In this document: positions 18,589 through 33,055 of the stretch, piece by piece
Position numbering within the stretch: position 1 is the stretch's first letter
Layout: every line of letters begins with the position of its first letter
Assembly: GCA_001776785.1 (NCBI GenBank)
Contig: MFDF01000004.1
Span: forward strand, 9,339-44,835
Source of the DNA: Candidatus Daviesbacteria bacterium RIFCSPHIGHO2_12_FULL_37_16
Lineage (GTDB): Bacteria; Patescibacteriota; Microgenomatia; Daviesbacterales; UBA10151
Length of the DNA stretch: 35,497 bases
Direction: 5' to 3'
Position numbers and translations under genes: made by a program
Notes under the pieces: model-generated
Databases searched by the model: none
Told to the model about the DNA's origin: nothing
The model's input: only the letters and a program-made list of their open reading frames with translations

Positions 18589-18639
18589 ATCTACCTCTTC
18601 TTTAAGAGAACAGAGTCTGTTATTGAAACAAAGATTTCA

Positions 18640-18786
18640 ATAACAAGCGCCGTTCTCGCAAGCTCTGCTTATCAGAGAAGCGTTCTATCCTGGGTTACTT
18701 TGTATTATAGTTCTCCTTCAGAGATAAATTGTATGTAACCCGTTGAATTGTCATTTAGACAATTCAACCCACTGAACTACCAGCCC
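18640..18786 (-). pseudogene. tRNA-Ile-like pseudogene with a D-loop insertion
   Basis: The minus strand begins GGGCTGGTAGTTCAGTGG, a convincing tRNA 5' half. Within the D-loop about 80 bp is inserted (18692-18770). The sequence then resumes GATAGAACGCTTCTCTGATAA, giving the D-stem GTTC/GAAC and a GAT anticodon loop. After that it degenerates: the 3' side of the anticodon stem is mismatched and no T-arm or CCAGCCC acceptor strand follows. A duplicate of tRNA-Ile damaged by insertion is the simplest reading. Confidence 0.45.
18692..18770 (-). ncRNA. Structured element, copy B
   Basis: On the minus strand there is a hairpin (GTTGAATTGTC..GACAATTCAAC), then a stem GGGTTAC..GTAACCC enclosing AATTTATCTC-TGAAG-GAGAACTATAATA. 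Copy A at 20144-20219 has the same plan and the same unpaired bases, but different paired bases. Candidate new RNA or mobile palindrome; function unknown. Confidence 0.5.
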
Positions 18787-25205: not shown

Positions 25206-26165
25206 ATGGCTTCACAGATAGATTATGTTTTACTCTCTGGCACTGCTAATCCTCAATTATCTTTCCAGGTTGGGAAAATTTTAAAAACAAAAGTTTATGA
25301 GCCTGTTACCAGGTTTGCAGACGGAGAAGTCAGGATCCAAATCCCTGTCAACATAAGAAGAAGGAGTGTGATTATTATCCAGCCTACCTGCCCGCCCCAG
25401 GTTGACCAGAGCATAATGGAGCTTATTTTAATGATTGATGCTGCCAAGAGGGCATCTGCATCTGAGATAATTGCCATCATTCCATATTTTGGATATGCCA
25501 GGCAAGACAGGAAGGATCGGCCAAGGGTCCCTATCTCTTCATCTGTTGTAGCAAGACTTATAGAGCATGCAGGGGCAAACAGGATCTGCACCGTAGATAT
25601 CCATTCTGACCAGGAACAGGGTTTTGTATCTACTCCCTGGGATAATTTGTATGCAAGTTTTTGCCTGGTCCCTAAGATTAAGAAATTAAAACTTAAGAAT
25701 TTAGTAGTTGCTTCCCCTGATAAAGGAGGGGTTCCTATGGCAACTGCTTTTGCTAAAAGGTTAAAAGCAACCGGGCTGGCCATAGTTTATAAAGAAAGGG
25801 ATGTGCATTTAAATGATTCAGCAGCGTCTCTGGATATGATTGGGGATGTAAAAGGAAAAACAGTTTTAATGGTTGATGATTTAGTTTCTACAGCAAGTAC
25901 GCTTTGCAATGGCGCAGATTTAATTAAATTAAGGGGAGCAAAAAATATTCTTGCTGCAATTACCCATGGAATTTTTTCCCAGGATGCACTGGAGAGGATT
26001 GCCTCCTCCCCTATTGATAAATTATTTATAACAAATACTGTTCCTCAAAGAGAAGAGGTTTTAAAAAGCAAAAAAATAGAAATAGTTTCAGTTGCTCCAC
26101 TGATTGCAGAAGCCATAAAAAGGATAGAAACTGGTGAATCTATTTCTGAAAAATTAATCCTTTAA
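25206..26165 (+). CDS. prs: Ribose-phosphate pyrophosphokinase
   Basis: Cytoplasmic enzyme making PRPP from ribose 5-phosphate and ATP for nucleotide synthesis. FADGEVRIQI, PYFGYARQDRKDRPR, the TVDIHSDQEQGF metal/ATP loop (usually DLHxxQIQGFF) and the PRPP loop VLMVDDLVSTAST are present. 319 residues is standard. Its last 13 codons, TGESISEKLIL-stop, lie in a 40-bp segment that recurs at 28001-28040, on the other side of a two-gene cassette. Before that insertion the gene probably met the minus-strand gene now at 28027-29349 tail to tail. Confidence 0.96.
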   Translation: MASQIDYVLLSGTANPQLSFQVGKILKTKVYEPVTRFADGEVRIQIPVNIRRRSVIIIQPTCPPQVDQSIMELILMIDAAKRASASEIIAIIPYFGYARQDRKDRPRVPISSSVVARLIEHAGANRICTVDIHSDQEQGFVSTPWDNLYASFCLVPKIKKLKLKNLVVASPDKGGVPMATAFAKRLKATGLAIVYKERDVHLNDSAASLDMIGDVKGKTVLMVDDLVSTASTLCNGADLIKLRGAKNILAAITHGIFSQDALERIASSPIDKLFITNTVPQREEVLKSKKIEIVSVAPLIAEAIKRIETGESISEKLIL

Positions 26166-26167
26166 CA
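26128..26167. repeat. Direct repeat, left copy, at the prs 3' end
   Basis: 40 bp including the prs stop codon, matching 28001-28040 at 39 of 40 positions. The cassette's asnB-like gene ends 10 bp to its right. Confidence 0.9.
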
Positions 26168-26176
26168 CTTCTATTT

Positions 26177-27289
26177 TTATTGGCTCCTTCTATATTGATT
26201 TTCAGGATAGCTTTTTTGAAATAAGAAGCGATTTTCTTGATTTACAGGATACCCTCCACAAGTTTGACAATGATGTCTATTTTCTAAAACTCCTCCTCCA
26301 CACCAAGAGCAAGAATATTGACCAATTTCTGGGGGTTGTGGTTCTAAGCCTAATTCTTTATAAATTAAGTACAACTTACCATGATATTTGCTCCAAAAAC
26401 TTTTACCGCTTCTTCTCATTTCCCTTATCTCTTGTCTGGTTACCGACTCTTCAAGGATAGATTCCATAATATCAGTCCCTGACCCAAATTCAAGATCAGT
26501 TTTAGTTCTCCAAACAATTTCATTAGGGAGTAATCCATAGGCTGAGACGCGAAGGATGATTTTCCCCCAGGTGTTCAATCTAGATAATTCTGGGTTTAAT
26601 AATTGGGCATAATCACCGGGTCTTCCAAGCTCTAATGGCCTAATAAGGTCTGATCTCTGCATTTTTTGTGCTGAATCTAGGACTTCTTGATAAAGATACG
26701 GATAAGTTATTTGTAAACCCATTGACCTGGCAATTCTCGAAGAGGATAATCTAATATTTGGAATTAAATCTCTAACCCATTGTTCGAGATTTAAATTCGG
26801 CTGATGCAAATAGCTATATCCTGCAAACAACCCATCGGCTGCATCACCAGTCCTAACAATTCTATGACCTAATGACGCCGAATAACGTAAACCCTCATAA
26901 ATTGGAATATCATTTTTAACAGCTGGATCATAACTTCCTGTTAATCTAATAACTTCTCTTATATCGTCTAAAGCGCGGGCTTGATTAATCTCGACAGAAT
27001 ACCATGGGGTACCAAGATATTCGGTTACCTGCTGAGCATGTCTTAAATCACTTCCATGACCTTCTAATACTACAGTAATTGCAGGAATTTTTGGATCAAT
27101 GGCAGCTAGAATTGACGAATCTACCCCACCTGAAAGTAAGAGTGAATCAGCGGGGTTAGTTGTAATAGCACTTCTTAAGGCATAGCGTAATTGCTGAGCC
27201 TTATCTGCTAATTCTCCATGTACAATAATTATACCTCTATCTATTGGAAACATAGAAGATATAATAACATTTAAAACTATGGGATTCAA
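26177..27289 (-). CDS. AsnB-like PP-loop ATPase with C-terminal zinc ribbon
   Basis: 370 residues homologous to the synthetase domain of asparagine synthase B: PP-loop LLSGGVDSS (51-59), TGDAADGLFAGYSY (family G-x-GADELF-GY), and ELGRPGDYAQLLNPELSRLNTWGKI. The N-terminal glutaminase domain and its Cys are absent, so ammonia or another amine donor, or another adenylation chemistry, is likely. The C-terminus adds a zinc ribbon (C327, C330, C341, C344), which is not typical of AsnB and may bind a carrier or nucleic acid. The start could be the Met at residue 13. It is cassette cargo, flanked by the prs direct repeats and divergent from the 27582 gene. Substrate unknown. Confidence 0.8.
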   Translation of the reverse strand: MNPIVLNVIISSMFPIDRGIIIVHGELADKAQQLRYALRSAITTNPADSLLLSGGVDSSILAAIDPKIPAITVVLEGHGSDLRHAQQVTEYLGTPWYSVEINQARALDDIREVIRLTGSYDPAVKNDIPIYEGLRYSASLGHRIVRTGDAADGLFAGYSYLHQPNLNLEQWVRDLIPNIRLSSSRIARSMGLQITYPYLYQEVLDSAQKMQRSDLIRPLELGRPGDYAQLLNPELSRLNTWGKIILRVSAYGLLPNEIVWRTKTDLEFGSGTDIMESILEESVTRQEIREMRRSGKSFWSKYHGKLYLIYKELGLEPQPPEIGQYSCSWCGGGVLENRHHCQTCGGYPVNQENRFLFQKSYPENQYRRSQ

Positions 27290-27310
27290 TCTAAAAGTTA
27301 ATAATGTACT

Positions 27311-27493
27311 CTATATGGGTTTTTTAAACCTAAACCTATACCCGACACTTCTTATTACGTCAATTGTTTCTGTAGGACTAGGCAATCCTCTCTCTTTAAA
27401 TAGTTGTATTATAGATTTACCTTCAGGATGTGCCTCTTTGGTTGAGATTTCATTTTGTTTTCCTAAAACCCTAATAGATTCCTTTTCTGGCAT
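27311..27493 (-). CDS. Small protein resembling the end of a winged-helix domain
   Basis: 60 residues. The C-terminal part (LPSPTETIDVIRSVGYRFRF) resembles the last strand-hairpin of OmpR-type DNA-binding domains (usually V-R-G-x-GYRF). The rest is too short for a complete domain, so this is either a relic or a small regulator. It is 21 bp upstream of the asnB-like start on the same strand. No ribosome site is visible. Low confidence that it is expressed. Confidence 0.4.
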   Translation of the reverse strand: MPEKESIRVLGKQNEISTKEAHPEGKSIIQLFKERGLPSPTETIDVIRSVGYRFRFKKPI

Positions 27494-27562
27494 AGTTTTA
27501 TGATAATTAACTTTATTATTATACTACTTATACTCAAATTATACTCAAACTTTACCTTTTAG

Positions 27563-27571
27563 TGCTATAAT
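27563..27571 (+). promoter_or_regulatory. Extended -10 of the 27582 gene
   Basis: TGCTATAAT ends ten bases before the ATG. There is no good -35. The transcript would have almost no leader. Confidence 0.6.
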
Positions 27572-27581
27572 TAAGGACCCA

Positions 27582-28001
27582 ATGGCAGAGAATGTCTTAA
27601 ATATAAGAAGCAATGAAAGGTTCTTAACCTCTTTAAGAATCGTTATACCTTTTTTAGCCCAAGTTCCTGATCCTATATATTATCAGCTTGATAGCTCACA
27701 ATTTGTTCTCCCTAAAGGTAATATCGCAAGGTTAAGAGTAATGTTAGAAGATGAAATTGGACATTTTGTCATGACTTATAGAGCAGATACATTTAATTTG
27801 ACAATTCCTTTAGAAAGACATTTATGCGCAGTCCTGGCAGGAGCTGAGTTAACTGCTGAACAAATAACCCTTCTTCAACATTATGAAGCGAGGACGAAAC
27901 CTAACGGGATAAGTCTAGTTGTTTATAAAAGACCGCTTGAACTAATAAATTCTAGAGAGAGCTGGCTTTTTGAGAATTATCAAAAAAGAGGATTACTTTA
28001 A
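27582..28001 (+). CDS. Hypothetical protein, 139 aa, cassette cargo
   Basis: I do not recognise it. It is a soluble alpha/beta protein with RLRVMLEDEIGHFVMTYRADTFNLTIPLER in the centre, a pattern of alternating charged and hydrophobic strands faintly reminiscent of CYTH-type tunnels. The match is too weak to name. It has no Cys. It is divergent from the asnB-like gene, and its TAA stop ends at the first base of the right-hand direct repeat, so it fills the cassette to the edge. An extended -10 lies ten bases upstream of the ATG. Confidence 0.65.
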   Translation: MAENVLNIRSNERFLTSLRIVIPFLAQVPDPIYYQLDSSQFVLPKGNIARLRVMLEDEIGHFVMTYRADTFNLTIPLERHLCAVLAGAELTAEQITLLQHYEARTKPNGISLVVYKRPLELINSRESWLFENYQKRGLL

Positions 28002-28040
28002 AACAGGTGAATCTATTTCTGAAAAATTAATCCTTTAACA
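28001..28040. repeat. Direct repeat, right copy
   Basis: A duplicate of the prs 3' end (39/40). On the minus strand the same bases supply the last codons and stop (LLKD-stop) of the 28027-29349 gene, so one 40-bp sequence serves two genes on opposite strands. Confidence 0.9.
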
Positions 28041-29349
28041 AAGGCTCTAGCAATAAATCCTGAGTATCTAAATGAAACTTAGGAGTAAATACTAGAGCTT
28101 GCTCGCCCATACCTGAATCTTCTTCATTAAGAGGACCTACTGGTGACTGTATGCTTTCTGAATTCTGCATAACTTGGTCATATTGTTCAATTATCCTTAC
28201 AGGTGCAGCTTTTGTGCTTAATTCTTCCTGAGCTATAACAATTTCTTCTTCAGCAAAAGAGCTGAAACCATGAATCTTTATTAACTCTTCCTGAGTAAGC
28301 TTTTCCCCCTCACCCCACATTCCTGGTCTATTATTATAATTAGATTTATGGATTGCATTTATGGCTTTTTCGGGATCTACAATTCCAGCTAACAATCCAA
28401 ACATAAATCCAACCCTTGAGCCATCCTCTTTGTGGCGCTTTCTTAAAAGGGAGCTCTTGGTTGCATCAGTTAAATCTACTTTGTCATGAACCATTTGAGT
28501 GTCTACAAGGGCACTGCCAGTCTCAGGGTCTTTAGTTGTTAACTTTCTAACCAGAGAAATTGCATCTAGTAATCTCTGCCTGGCTGTATCAGCATCAAAA
28601 ACAGGAGTAAATCTTGTTTCACTAAAATCTGACTCAGCTATTTTTCTTCGTAATACTCTTCTCCTTGTAAGAAGTTGTGTTTGAGGCTCTGGATTGATTA
28701 ATTGTGGTACTGTAACAACTTTTAAGCTTTCATTAGCAGAATTTTGGGGTTTTGTTTGCAGGGCATTCTGGGTTAAAGTTTCAGCTTGAGGAGCAGTCAT
28801 TAATTTTTGCTCAACCAACCTATCAAATCTGGCGCGAACAGTTTGAGCAAAAGCCATCTCAGAGGTCGAACGAGTTTGAGGCCTTAGGACTCTTATAACT
28901 GGCTTTACTTCAGCTTTAGGCTTTAGGGCTTCATTAACCTGCAGCCTTGGAGTTTCCAGTCTAGTGGTTGGTGAGGGTTGGTTAACTTTAAACATCCTAA
29001 CTTTTTGGGCTGGGTTATAGAAATCAGGTTTACCCAATTTAATATCAGAAGTATCAAGGCTTCTGAAATTTCCTAAATTAAAGCTTCTGCCTCTCTCTAG
29101 TGCTTGTTTAAAAATTTGGACTCTGGGATTTGGTCTTGATTCTATTGGAGGGTTGCCAATTTTAACCATGCCTCTTAATGGCTCCATTCTGGCTGGGCCC
29201 TCATTAACTATTGGAGATGGAGATAATCTTGTGAAATTAGGTGAAGAAAAACGACCTAGTATGCCCGGAGATCGGGCTGCTTCTGCCCCTCTTGATGGAC
29301 TGGTTAGTGCCGGTCCGGCTGATTTGATGGCTGCTCCTACTCTTTCCAT
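28027..29349 (-). CDS. Hypothetical protein, 440 aa, disordered N-terminal half
   Basis: Residues 1-240 are Pro/Ser/Arg/Gln-rich, basic and apparently disordered (APALTSPSRGAEAARS, RPNPRVQIFKQALERG). Residues about 245-390 look folded and helical (DADTARQRLLDAISLVRKLT, GSRVGFMFGLLAGIVDPEKAINAIHKS, KLTQEELIKIHGFSSFAEE). The acidic C-terminus ends in bases of the prs-type repeat. No signal peptide or membrane helix is present. A TATAAT box near 29390 and an AAAGG site before the ATG support the start. A CTGTAA-TC-TTACAG dyad (29368-29381) could be an operator. Family and role are unknown; a scaffold or nucleoid-associated protein is a guess. Confidence 0.65.
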   Translation of the reverse strand: MERVGAAIKSAGPALTSPSRGAEAARSPGILGRFSSPNFTRLSPSPIVNEGPARMEPLRGMVKIGNPPIESRPNPRVQIFKQALERGRSFNLGNFRSLDTSDIKLGKPDFYNPAQKVRMFKVNQPSPTTRLETPRLQVNEALKPKAEVKPVIRVLRPQTRSTSEMAFAQTVRARFDRLVEQKLMTAPQAETLTQNALQTKPQNSANESLKVVTVPQLINPEPQTQLLTRRRVLRRKIAESDFSETRFTPVFDADTARQRLLDAISLVRKLTTKDPETGSALVDTQMVHDKVDLTDATKSSLLRKRHKEDGSRVGFMFGLLAGIVDPEKAINAIHKSNYNNRPGMWGEGEKLTQEELIKIHGFSSFAEEEIVIAQEELSTKAAPVRIIEQYDQVMQNSESIQSPVGPLNEEDSGMGEQALVFTPKFHLDTQDLLLEPLLKD

Positions 29350-29434: not shown

Positions 29435-29535
29435 CTATATCTTTGAGGAATTTTCTAGCACTTGGTAAAGCACAATTCCTAAAGAAACCATGACATTTAA
29501 AGAGCTGTTTGTGCCATACATTGGGATTTCAATCC
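29435..29535 (-). pseudogene. Remnant of a SpoU methylase 3' end
   Basis: The minus strand encodes EIPMYGTNSSLNVMVSLGIV and LYQVLE, nearly identical to the end of the intact SpoU gene at 32504-33055, while the DNA differs at roughly one base in seven by eye. Nothing upstream of EIPMYG matches. It is thus a separated, diverged copy of the 3' end, left on the far side of the 29570-32451 cassette. Confidence 0.85.
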
Positions 29536-29569: not shown

Positions 29570-30073
29570 ATGAAAAAAGAACAAATTGCTTGTGAAACCC
29601 AGGATGGAAATATTAGCTGGGCAGACACTGATAATATTCAACTCCGAACAAGTGCTTACGGAATACTTGCTGATAATTCTGGGAGATTACTCGTAATACA
29701 GGCTCACCTGCCTCTTTGGGAATTTCCTGGAGGAACTCCTGAAAATGGAGAAACTATTAGTCAGGCTGTCGAAAGAGAATTTGAAGAAGAAACCGGTATA
29801 AAGATCAGGCCAAAGGAATTAATCCTTCTGCGGGAATCATTTTACCAGACTCCTGGCAAACAAGTTTATCATTCACTCCAACATTTTTTTATAGTAGAAA
29901 AAATAGGAGGAAACATTAATTTTTCTAAGGATAACTTGACACAGGCGACATGGAATGAGACTTTAGATCTATCCCAAGACAATATGAACAGAGGAGCATT
30001 CGAAGCTCTTAAAGCTTACCTCGAATATCCTCAAGGGAAATTTAGGTTTTTAAACCCAGCACAGAACGGCTAA
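29570..30073 (+). CDS. NUDIX hydrolase
   Basis: 167 residues, cytoplasmic pyrophosphohydrolase fold. The Nudix box is complete: GGTPENGETISQAVEREFEEETGI (about residues 59-82, matching GX5EX7REUXEEXGU), giving the Mg-binding Glu residues. The substrate (nucleoside diphosphate linked to X, or an oxidised nucleotide) cannot be read. It is the first gene of the cassette, four bp before a TTG-started P-loop kinase, so the two form an operon. The start is fixed by a TGC-TATTAT box six bases upstream. Confidence 0.88.
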   Translation: MKKEQIACETQDGNISWADTDNIQLRTSAYGILADNSGRLLVIQAHLPLWEFPGGTPENGETISQAVEREFEEETGIKIRPKELILLRESFYQTPGKQVYHSLQHFFIVEKIGGNINFSKDNLTQATWNETLDLSQDNMNRGAFEALKAYLEYPQGKFRFLNPAQNG

Positions 30074-30077
30074 GTCA

Positions 30078-30665
30078 TTGGACAACGAGCATAATTTATT
30101 TCTGATCGCAGTAGGAGGAATTAGAGGTGTCGGTAAAAGCTCAACCTTAGATAGAGCTCTGCAGTTATTTCCTAAGATCGAAGTAATTCATGTAGGTGAC
30201 AGATTGAAAGAATTCTCTGTCGCCCAAACTGGTATATATTTTTTTGATCATGCTGATTCAACAAAAGATATTATTAGGGAAAGTTTCAGTATAAGTTTAT
30301 TAGAATCACTTTTAGGAGGAATCCCAACTTTTCTAGATTTGCATTTTACTGATATTGACGAAGAACCAGAAAAATCTCTTCAACCTAACATATTCGTTAA
30401 AGAATTCCGTCATTTTATTCTTTTGGATGCTTCAGATTCTACAATTCTTGAGCGAAGAAGACTCGATTTATCGAGGGAAAGACATATGACCGTTAATTCA
30501 ATAAGACATGAGAGGGATTCTGAATTTAAAGCTATTCAAAATGCCGCACATATGCACAAAAAAACCCTAACCTTGATAGACACTGAGATGGATATAGACA
30601 CTGTTGCAGTTAGAATTTTGGACAGCATTGGAATCTTGACTCAACCAGACAAGAGTGATGAATAA
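30078..30665 (+). CDS. P-loop kinase-like NTPase, TTG start
   Basis: 195 residues. Walker A is GGIRGVGKSST (residues 13-23) near the N-terminus, then VGDRLKEFSV and FLDLHFTDIDEEPE (Walker B-like Asp), and ILLDASDSTILERRRLDLSRERH, a lid-like Arg-rich segment as in nucleoside or nucleotide kinases. This is the plan of the adenylate-kinase-like small-molecule kinase group. Initiation at TTG (30078) gives a complete P-loop strand. Its stop is two bases from the stop of the convergent radical SAM gene. With the NUDIX protein it suggests metabolism of a phosphorylated or nucleotide-linked compound. Substrate unknown. Confidence 0.8.
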   Translation: MDNEHNLFLIAVGGIRGVGKSSTLDRALQLFPKIEVIHVGDRLKEFSVAQTGIYFFDHADSTKDIIRESFSISLLESLLGGIPTFLDLHFTDIDEEPEKSLQPNIFVKEFRHFILLDASDSTILERRRLDLSRERHMTVNSIRHERDSEFKAIQNAAHMHKKTLTLIDTEMDIDTVAVRILDSIGILTQPDKSDE

Positions 30666-30666
30666 A

Positions 30667-32451
30667 TTATTGTGAAAGTCCCGGCAGAAGTTTTTGTAAG
30701 TTTCCTTCCTCTATATTTACTCTCGTAAGAGGAATTCCCTCTAAAGTAAATTTGGGTAAATTTTCTCCTTCAACCGTTACTTCTGAGAGGTTTCGGGTAT
30801 CTAGTTGAGATATTGATATACCAGAAGTAGTTGTGGGAGTGTTTTTTCTACCTCGATTCGCTGTGGATATATTTTCCAAGTTAATATCATTAGGACTTGG
30901 TGCCCACCGCCATACTCTTCCTCTCATAGAAGAAATGCTTAAATTTCCAAAACCTCTTTCCTCCCTCGGGGTTACGGGTATATCCATCCCAGAAACTAAT
31001 CCTTTGAATTCAAAAATAGCCCTTCCTTGATTTACAATTTGACCTGTATCGATCGTAAAATTTCTACTAAAAAAGTACGCGGGCGGGTAGCCAGCTAATC
31101 TCAAAGACTGATAATAGGCCTCTACCATTGGGATAACCTCTTCTAGAATGTGTATTGCCCCCTTTCTATCGAACCTAATCCTATCTGTCGCGTCAGCACC
31201 CAATTGCGTTATCACTTCATCAGCATGATGCCAAGCAGCATCTGAAAATTCATCTCGCCTAGCTAATCCTCTTTTTTGTTTTGCACTCAAAAGCGTATTT
31301 AATAGATATCTCTCAGAATCCATATAGCCACTCTTCTGGCGTTTATCTGTTTTTGGATAGAAATGCTTAGCTCTAAAGAAACCTTCCTTCTGAAAATCTG
31401 GATCAACAGCATAGTAAGGACCATCTGAATTCTCGAATTTATACATAACAACTTTCTGAACGTGGATATCTCCAGAATTCATATCTAATGGATCTTTGCC
31501 TTTACTTAGATAATTTATAGTCGTTTCGGCTAGATTCTTCCAGTCAGTATCCTCAATATATTTATTAGAAATTATCATGAAATATTCTATCGACGATTGG
31601 CTAAATACAGGATTCCCATTGTTTATGTATGAAATAGCCGTCAAAGGGAGGGGCGTGGATTCTTCGCTACCTACAAGAAGGTATGGGCCAGAACTTACAC
31701 AATGATACCTTTTTATAACTTGATCCCCAAGATCATCGTCGAAAGAAACCGCTAAAGGACGGGTTCTAAACTCAACGCAGGCAGTCTCTTTACCCACGCC
31801 TAAATAATCTACTAACGGTCTATATGTCTCCAGAGCATTGGAAAAATCTTCAATATACTCTGACGGATTATTCACCCATCCATGAGTGTAGGGTGTAAAA
31901 GAAAAACGTACTCCTGCAAACCCTTGTTTTAAATCTTCATTTATTCTTTCATGCATTGTCTGTAGAAGATTATTGTGTCTTGAATAACCAACCGTTGAAA
32001 CCCTTACTTTTGCTCTAAGGTCTTCCATTGTATATTTGGTGAATTCATAGAGGAGAGGATAGGAGAAAATATCATTATCCATATATGGAAAAATTACCCC
32101 TGGTCTATGCCCTGTCCTCTCAGCTCCTACTAAAGGTGTCCCTGTTTCTCCTTGTTGTTCGTCTATCTCAGTAGCTACTGTTTTGATAGCCGAAAATAAA
32201 TTTTTTAAATTGGATTGGTCTAATTGCCAAGTATTGTTTCCAGCACTTTGGCTGCAAAAACCACATCGATTTAAGCAACCAATTTGGGGTTGAAGAAACT
32301 GCATTCTGGTTATTGCCTCAGTTGGTATTGCCCTAATTTGAGCGATCAGATTTGATCGCTCCTCTAAGGTACCGGCCGTAAGGGACTCCATATCTCCCTC
32401 GCTTTCTAGTGGAAGAACAGAGTTCCCTTTTTTAGCTTCATTTGAAGACAT
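30667..32451 (-). CDS. Radical SAM protein, about 594 aa
   Basis: The 4Fe-4S cluster motif C-x3-C-x2-C is seen in QIGCLNRCGFCSQSAG (about residues 59-66 from the ATG at 32451). It is followed by TIM-barrel-like segments (GVIFPYMDNDIFSYPLL, KVRVSTVGYSRH, GVRFSFTPYTHG). The C-terminal third (VEAYYQSLRLAGYPPAYFFSR, then low-similarity beta repeats such as NLSEVTVEGENLPKFTLEG) has no recognised accessory domain and no extra Cys cluster. The ATG start (MSSNEAKK) is preferred to a TTG four codons upstream. It is cassette cargo, flanked by the two SpoU 3' ends. The substrate is unknown. Confidence 0.85.
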   Translation of the reverse strand: MSSNEAKKGNSVLPLESEGDMESLTAGTLEERSNLIAQIRAIPTEAITRMQFLQPQIGCLNRCGFCSQSAGNNTWQLDQSNLKNLFSAIKTVATEIDEQQGETGTPLVGAERTGHRPGVIFPYMDNDIFSYPLLYEFTKYTMEDLRAKVRVSTVGYSRHNNLLQTMHERINEDLKQGFAGVRFSFTPYTHGWVNNPSEYIEDFSNALETYRPLVDYLGVGKETACVEFRTRPLAVSFDDDLGDQVIKRYHCVSSGPYLLVGSEESTPLPLTAISYINNGNPVFSQSSIEYFMIISNKYIEDTDWKNLAETTINYLSKGKDPLDMNSGDIHVQKVVMYKFENSDGPYYAVDPDFQKEGFFRAKHFYPKTDKRQKSGYMDSERYLLNTLLSAKQKRGLARRDEFSDAAWHHADEVITQLGADATDRIRFDRKGAIHILEEVIPMVEAYYQSLRLAGYPPAYFFSRNFTIDTGQIVNQGRAIFEFKGLVSGMDIPVTPREERGFGNLSISSMRGRVWRWAPSPNDINLENISTANRGRKNTPTTTSGISISQLDTRNLSEVTVEGENLPKFTLEGIPLTRVNIEEGNLQKLLPGLSQ

Positions 32452-32503
32452 ATTGTGGGGCAAAAGTAACAGATTTGATTATTGAAGTCAAATTAGCTTA
32501 ATT

Positions 32504-33055
32504 TTAAGTTTGAATTTTTTCTAGCACTTGGTAAAGGACAATCCCCAAAGAGACCATGACATTTAAACTGATATTTACTCCATACATTGGCAGTTCTACT
32601 ACCCCATCACAAAGATTTAAAACTTCTTTTGAAATACCCTCTGTTTCATGTCCTGCAACAAGTGCAATTGGTAAGCTGTAATTATACTGATCATATGGTA
32701 TTGAGTCTTTTTGTTGTTCAACTGCAATTATAGAAATATTGGAGATTTTTTCCCTTAACTCAGAGATTGCATCTTCAGTTTTGTCAAAATATTCCCAATC
32801 AACTACTTCAGTTGTATTAATAGAGGCTTTTTTAATCCTTGGATTTGGAGGTGCTTCTGTCCCTCCGCAAAGAAAGATTTTTTTGGCAGCAACTGCATCA
32901 GCCAGCCTAAAGATTGCACCTATATTATATGTATCCAAGACATTGTCTAAGATAATGTAAATTGCATTCCGTCTTCCGTCTACAGTCTTGCGTAAGCTCT
33001 GTAGTCGGTAGTCTGTAGACTGTAAGCTTCTTAACTGTTTTGCATTTAGTTTCAT
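32504..33055 (-). CDS. SpoU/TrmH-family RNA 2'-O-methyltransferase
   Basis: 183 residues of the SPOUT knot fold. Motif 1 is LDNVLDTYNIGAIFRLADA (about 36-54, Asn and Arg catalytic), motif 2 is ALVAGHETEGIS (about 131-142) and motif 3 is LPMYGVNISLNVMVSLGIVL (about 154-173). SAM-dependent ribose methylation of tRNA or rRNA; the target is not predictable. The first 30 or so codons (LQSTDYRLQSLRKTVDGRR) come from the GACTACCGACTAC word repeat also found in the 16S leader, so the N-terminus is extended by repeat. A diverged duplicate of its 3' end lies at 29435-29535. Confidence 0.93.
   Translation of the reverse strand: MKLNAKQLRSLQSTDYRLQSLRKTVDGRRNAIYIILDNVLDTYNIGAIFRLADAVAAKKIFLCGGTEAPPNPRIKKASINTTEVVDWEYFDKTEDAISELREKISNISIIAVEQQKDSIPYDQYNYSLPIALVAGHETEGISKEVLNLCDGVVELPMYGVNISLNVMVSLGIVLYQVLEKIQT
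32965..33030. repeat. GTCTTCCGTCTACAGTC words in the SpoU N-terminal codons
   Basis: Words GTCTTCCGTCTACAGTC and GTAGTCGGTAGTCTGTAGAC form a hairpin. The family matches 23430-23480 with the words permuted. It is read in frame upstream of the conserved SPOUT core. Confidence 0.65.

Follow-up and report, generated by a model that had tools for sequence, protein, structure and literature searches.

A gene-end repeat around an asnB-like cassette in a Candidatus Daviesbacteria genome as a probable scar of gene-anchored recombination

In the genome of Candidatus Daviesbacteria bacterium RIFCSPHIGHO2_12_FULL_37_16, a short direct repeat of the 3′ end of prs encloses a small cassette of genes, which raises the question of whether the repeat is an attachment site, a duplicated target or the trace of some other way of inserting DNA next to a housekeeping gene that stays intact. 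The window analysed here, 35,497 nucleotides in full, is a part of contig 4 of the 1.02-Mb draft genome (27 contigs), hereafter G000. The genomes used for comparison were the groundwater Candidatus Daviesbacteria genome G033, which belongs to the same family, G031 from the same genus as G033, and G022, G011, G026 and G012, the last of these a single-contig genome.

The 40-bp repeat consists of the last 11 codons and the stop codon of prs and lies exactly at the coordinates given in the earlier note (Table 1). Some 3e-11 exact 35-mer pairs within 5 kb would be expected by chance genome-wide, which places the repeat far above chance, and no third copy with up to three mismatches is present in the 1.02-Mb genome minus the 72 kb masked on contig C6. 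The left copy lies about 10 bp from the stop codon of the asnB-like gene, while the first base of the right copy overlaps the stop codon of p139. As the open reading frame map bears out, the right copy also contains the last codons and the stop of a convergent 440-aa frame, p440. At the prs junction the sequence AAAC is shared and is a candidate microhomology. The proposal that both host genes had been kept whole holds for prs, whereas the host status of p440 is uncertain, as the protein has no match in Pfam, NCBIfam or PHROGs and no convincing relative. A 538-aa protein beside prs in G011 was considered as a relative of p440 and rejected, the two having only weak local similarity (E=0.02).

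Table 1 Features at the prs–trmH interval, in positions of the window.
Feature	Position	Strand	Evidence or remark
prs, ribose-phosphate diphosphokinase, intact, 319 aa	25206..26165	+	ORF; Pribosyltran_N 4e-39; PRK01259 2e-108
Repeat copy 1, 3′ end of intact prs	26128..26167	+	39/40 match; unique pair in genome
AsnB-like ATP-dependent ligase, 370 aa, TTG start	26177..27289	-	PF00733 9.5e-27; PDB 1ct9 1.8e-16
60-aa ORF	27311..27493	-	ORF; judged by eye alone, end is like that of an OmpR-type winged helix
p139, lineage-specific protein of unknown fold, 139 aa	27582..28001	+	Only relative in G033, 53% identical
Repeat copy 2, orphan prs 3′-end remnant	28001..28040	+	Single difference, synonymous, in a Thr codon
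p440, 440-aa ORF convergent with the prs remnant	28027..29349	-	ORF; last codons and stop inside the remnant
Orphan trmH 3′-end remnant, 80 nt, 84% identical	29451..29530	-	Second scar, same kind as the prs scar
Cargo 2: NUDIX hydrolase	29570..30073	+	PF00293 2.7e-16
Cargo 2: small P-loop kinase-like protein	30078..30665	+	PF13207 1.6e-6
Cargo 2: 598-aa protein with CxxxCxxC, radical-SAM-like by eye	30667..32463	-	Sequence
trmH-type RNA methyltransferase, intact	32504..33055	-	ORF; name from sequence; 32517-32596 is the other repeat copy

The cassette was described earlier as a two-gene cargo with both stop codons abutting the repeats, and this is confirmed for the two stops, but an additional 60-aa frame lies between the genes; it has no Pfam match of weight and is missing from the copy of the cassette in G033. 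The larger protein belongs to the asparagine synthetase B / beta-lactam synthetase family, with which it shares the PP-loop (SGGVDSS) and the similarity over the synthetase domain, scoring 95 bits against a gathering score of 21 for PF00733. It differs from the family in the absence of the glutaminase domain, in a C-terminal CxxC...CxxC arrangement that looks zinc-ribbon-like from the sequence, and in its divergent partner p139. Because the glutaminase domain is absent, it reaches only 93 bits against the cut-off of 499 for the AsnB equivalog PRK09431, the match beginning at profile position 214. For p139, searches of Pfam, NCBIfam, PADLOC, PHROGs and PDB were negative, its own genome was the only one to carry it among 379 genomes of the phylum, and no relatives were found among phages and plasmids. 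Likewise, no relatives of the AsnB-like protein were found in IMG/VR, and a search of the cassette with PADLOC and PHROGs returned nothing except an AsnB-like phrog with function unassigned. The cargo may act as an AsnB-type ATP-dependent amide-forming enzyme that has dispensed with the glutaminase domain and works together with p139. Consistent with the earlier note, profile searches (Pfam, NCBIfam, PADLOC, PHROGs) found no integrase or transposase in the cassette or at its ends, and a repeat search found no terminal inverted repeats there.

The AsnB-like protein and p139 occur together in one other searched genome, G033, where the divergent pair sits between metG and tatD and has no flanking repeat. 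Its orientation is reversed, with p139 rather than asnB facing the metG end and the p139 stop about 5 bp from it, and the G033 asnB has lost the N-terminal part including the PP-loop. In G031, metG and tatD are about 75 bp apart and the cassette is absent. The AsnB proteins of G000 and G033 are 77% identical although the identity is 50% for metG and 55% for tatD, which makes horizontal transfer likely; p139, at 53%, is not above the other genes. The cassette was therefore probably acquired horizontally, and since in G033 it occupies an unrelated site without a repeat, it is not tied to the 40-bp sequence. Of the suggestion that a compact cargo unit moves by site-specific or homologous exchange, the horizontal compact cargo, the lack of an integrase, the position at convergent gene ends and the option of homologous exchange stand. 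The repeat as a part of the moving unit or as its attachment site is not supported, because a related genome has the same genes at an unrelated site, in the other orientation and without repeats, which speaks against a repeat-bounded unit.

The 6.3 kb between prs and trmH in the window contain a second repeat, missed in the earlier note, in which the 3′ end of trmH is duplicated on the far side of a different cargo. The 598-aa protein of this cargo has no family match in Pfam, NCBIfam, PADLOC or PHROGs. In G022 trmH adjoins prs, and the two genes are directly convergent with one prs end, the G022 prs being only 59% identical; a true empty site was not seen among the compared genomes, all of which come from other genera. 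In G031 and G011 trmH is likewise near prs, separated from it by other cargo genes. The interval is thus an insertion hotspot. G031 has a repeat of the trmH 5′ end instead (172 nt, 88%), and a PIN/AbrB-like toxin-antitoxin pair lies between this remnant and the intact trmH (L049:5887-7405).

Similar remnants recur elsewhere. An initial test on the first, middle and last 30 residues of all open reading frames was dominated by paralogues, and a scan for orphan peptides was used instead, covering in-frame peptide duplicates no more than 8 kb apart and outside paralogous genes in all stretches of G000 and in 400-kb samples of G026 and G012. About eight orphan gene-end remnants were found in G000, with more in three related genomes (G031, G026 and G012), while the inverted-orientation control gave one orphan in total across the three scanned genomes (G000, G026 and G012). 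The clear cases in G000 are prs, trmH, rpsO (twice), rpsN, the 5′ ends of ruvX, uvrA and ychF, and a gene-end fragment on contig C2. The remnants involve both 3′ and 5′ ends of different genes and range from 24 to 171 nt. At rpsO (L090:4130-4480, that is, contig C1:44130-44480) two successive recoded 3′-end tails each follow a hairpin of about 65 nt, and all tails encode the same peptide; simple unequal crossing-over was rejected here because the hairpins are not alike and the tails have been recoded. The rpsN remnant is also accompanied by a hairpin, the ychF 5′ remnant adjoins a gene for an NYN-domain protein, and at C2 the cargo within the repeat encodes a methyltransferase and a 432-aa protein. 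Of the two C2 copies the longer is possibly a fragment too, and TTAAA is shared at the junction, again as a candidate microhomology. Both G026 and G012 have rpoD 3′ tails in the 400-kb samples, and G012 has a lepA 5′ remnant. In G026 (L153:17300 to L154:2060) the 3′ end of a membrane-protein gene is repeated over 75 nt with three synonymous changes, and beside this tail lies a 4.6-kb group of YcaO, nitroreductase, M16 peptidase and methyltransferase genes, by its gene content a predicted peptide-modification cluster.

The hairpins belong to a family of the form TTGCGA-stem...stem-TCTTAAA, with 12 loose matches compared to one in the reversed sequence, and the contig stretch with the rpsO hairpins has no match in Rfam. 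Members are located at L090:4252, L074:14319 and L074:13507, and on the minus strand of the window at about 18607-18661, where the copy is seemingly placed just before a tRNA. Two other direct repeats of G000 were also observed. One, of 84 bp and 96% identity, surrounds an AbiEii/DUF6922 toxin-antitoxin pair and a 200-aa gene to the left of the window (L050:5899-7701, contig C4), and the other, a perfect repeat of 91 bp with mirrored ends, surrounds a radical SAM/CutA1 gene group (L052:14794-16653, contig C1).

The differences between the repeat copies provide a clue to their origin. A decaying target duplication would give mainly nonsynonymous changes, with only about 22% synonymous expected under neutral decay. 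The five remnants that had been found by nucleotide or tblastn search (rpsO, rpsN, C2, G031 trmH and G000 trmH) sum to about 47 synonymous and 19 nonsynonymous differences; remnants found through identical peptides are biased to synonymous differences and were excluded from the sum. The individual ratios are 10:0 for rpsO, 6:0 for rpsN, about 13:4 for C2 and 12:8 for G031 trmH. For trmH in G000 the ratio is 6.5:6.5 (P=0.057) when averaged over mutational paths, at which the excess is marginal, and 9:4 (P=0.0005) by the most favourable path. The 5′ remnants of ychF and uvrA give no quantitative support for an excess, and the uvrA alignment, off by one codon, was not used. The synonymous excess therefore points to copies that evolved as working genes, and in most scars the two copies appear to have evolved in different genomes and to have been joined by transfer rather than to descend from a decayed target duplication. 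At prs the single synonymous difference cannot decide the matter: it is compatible with duplication in situ, and any donor must have been nearly identical in prs.

A further regularity is found at the junctions. In seven scars of G000, G026 and G012 the remnant starts right at a TAA, compared to about 11% expected in a random 6-nt window. It is the stop codon of the last cargo gene at prs, C2 and the G026 cluster, and the end of the short insert at rpsO (twice), rpsN and the G012 rpoD. Selection for a stop codon accounts for part of this, and a preference of the joining step possibly contributes.

The reading that best accommodates these observations, at a probability of roughly 0.6, is that asnB and p139 are foreign DNA integrated at prs by one-sided, gene-anchored recombination in a probably naturally competent cell. 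The incoming DNA would have consisted of prs, or the 3′ part of it, with the cassette behind, and homologous recombination would have taken place inside prs, while the far end was joined illegitimately within the recipient prs, 40 bp before its stop. An equivalent route would be circularisation of the fragment by end-joining followed by single-crossover integration. Either would yield, in this order, the intact prs, the cassette and an orphan tail left from the second prs copy, and the repeat would record an exchange of alleles rather than serve as an attachment site. The trmH scar a few kilobases away would have arisen in the same way, as would the others in G000 and its relatives. Uptake by transformation, the order of events and the assignment of donor and recipient copies are what we infer from this arrangement. 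By gene presence, G000 has the competence genes comEC and dprA; natural competence that requires ComEC has been demonstrated in another Patescibacterium (PMC10633639), and for groundwater Patescibacteria competence is regarded as one of the ways in which genes are gained (PMC12455944). In E. coli, DNA homologous on one side gave mostly partial target duplications of 109-950 bp, which were explained by recircularisation and a single crossover, true one-sided illegitimate events being rare (PMC3240628). By analogy, such an outcome of one-sided homology would explain the anatomy at prs with no need for a dedicated enzyme.

Other explanations account for parts of the pattern. A transposition-like process could have copied 40 bp of the target on insertion, the copies then drifting apart, and both the near identity of the prs copies and a hairpin family with defined ends between the duplicates at rpsO and rpsN would suit it. 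This is doubtful, given that transposase and terminal inverted repeats are absent and that the synonymous excess at rpsO, rpsN, C2 and G031 trmH indicates two copies that evolved as functional genes. If the 40 bp were instead attL and attR of an integrase-free, CIME- or satellite-like element at the prs 3′ end, served by a tyrosine recombinase in trans, this would fit a direct repeat that coincides with the 3′ end of a gene and leaves the genes to either side whole, and the genome does encode one Xer-like tyrosine recombinase. That gene, the sole one of its kind, is far away on another contig, however, no integrase lies in or near the cassette, the same cassette occupies an unrelated site in G033 without the repeat, and the other scars also involve 5′ ends and lengths from 24 to 171 nt, all of which makes an attachment site quite unlikely. 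An integron cassette was set aside, there being no integron integrase in the genome.

The junction TAA in the seven scars is unpredicted by random illegitimate joining, and it leaves a more specific mechanism some, if low, probability. Homing-type elements that carry a recoded target 3′ end and restore the gene after insertion are known from fungal mitochondrial atp6. An element of this sort would fit remnants that are recoded with the peptide unchanged, as well as the TAA that, in the seven scars, closes the cargo or hairpin and abuts the remnant exactly, but no homing endonuclease was recognised, the target genes and cargos are many and different, and prs has one change only; this explanation is very improbable. 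Also unlikely is a dedicated integrase-free process of Patescibacteria that inserts cassettes where housekeeping genes begin or end, supplies a recoded gene end by which the target is restored, and joins the cargo at a TAA abutting the displaced remnant; if true, its cargos would include hairpins of 65 nt at one extreme and entire YcaO peptide-modification clusters at the other. An assembly or binning artefact could be suspected in a draft genome of 27 contigs, yet the 40-bp repeat is shorter than a sequencing read, one base distinguishes its copies, and the single-contig genome G012 shows this pattern too, so that an artefact is extremely improbable.

Patescibacteria acquire many genes, which raises the matter of how DNA free of mobile elements enters their compact genomes. 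Gene-end remnants of this sort are found repeatedly next to foreign genes, in G000 as well as in related genomes, and suggest that DNA often enters these bacteria through a match with a single host gene, the other end being joined roughly and no mobile-element enzyme taking part. Orphan, synonymously diverged gene ends are simple to search for and show where an insertion took place, which gene served as anchor and what the cargo was. The route by which genes are gained can thereby be tested in thousands of genomes, and the present scars point to the AsnB/p139 pair, the YcaO cluster and toxin-antitoxin pairs as cargo that moves by it.

Among known systems, a transposon differs from the prs cassette in having terminal inverted repeats and a transposase, both absent here. 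CIMEs and other integrase-less att-flanked islands have direct repeats at a gene 3′ end and no recombinase; unlike in these, the repeat is not common to both sites of the cassette, and a related integrative element was not found. Homology-facilitated illegitimate recombination, together with single-crossover integration of recircularised fragments, would have in common with the prs scar a single homologous anchor, an illegitimate junction and the partial target duplication, although there it was obtained in designed E. coli crosses, whereas here it is inferred from natural scars that are usually shorter (24 to 171 nt versus 109-950; PMC3240628). Insertion with long target duplication is known from Helicobacter pylori (Nobusato et al. 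2000; PMC1643837, PMC3031569), where, as at prs, a cassette lies within a direct repeat of host sequence that is long and variable. The 40-nt prs repeat is, as in that system, longer than the usual transposon duplications, neither case needs a transposase, and the H. pylori system comes from a naturally transformable organism. The cargo differs, with restriction-modification genes in H. pylori and AsnB/p139, NUDIX/kinase, methyltransferase, YcaO and PIN cassettes and small hairpins here. The copies described here also often differ synonymously, which points to a foreign gene copy; the divergence at rpsO, rpsN, C2 and G031 trmH fits this, while prs has one difference only. Overall, the prs repeat is best seen as a recombination scar; its kind is known, the setting is new, and the pattern merits a survey.
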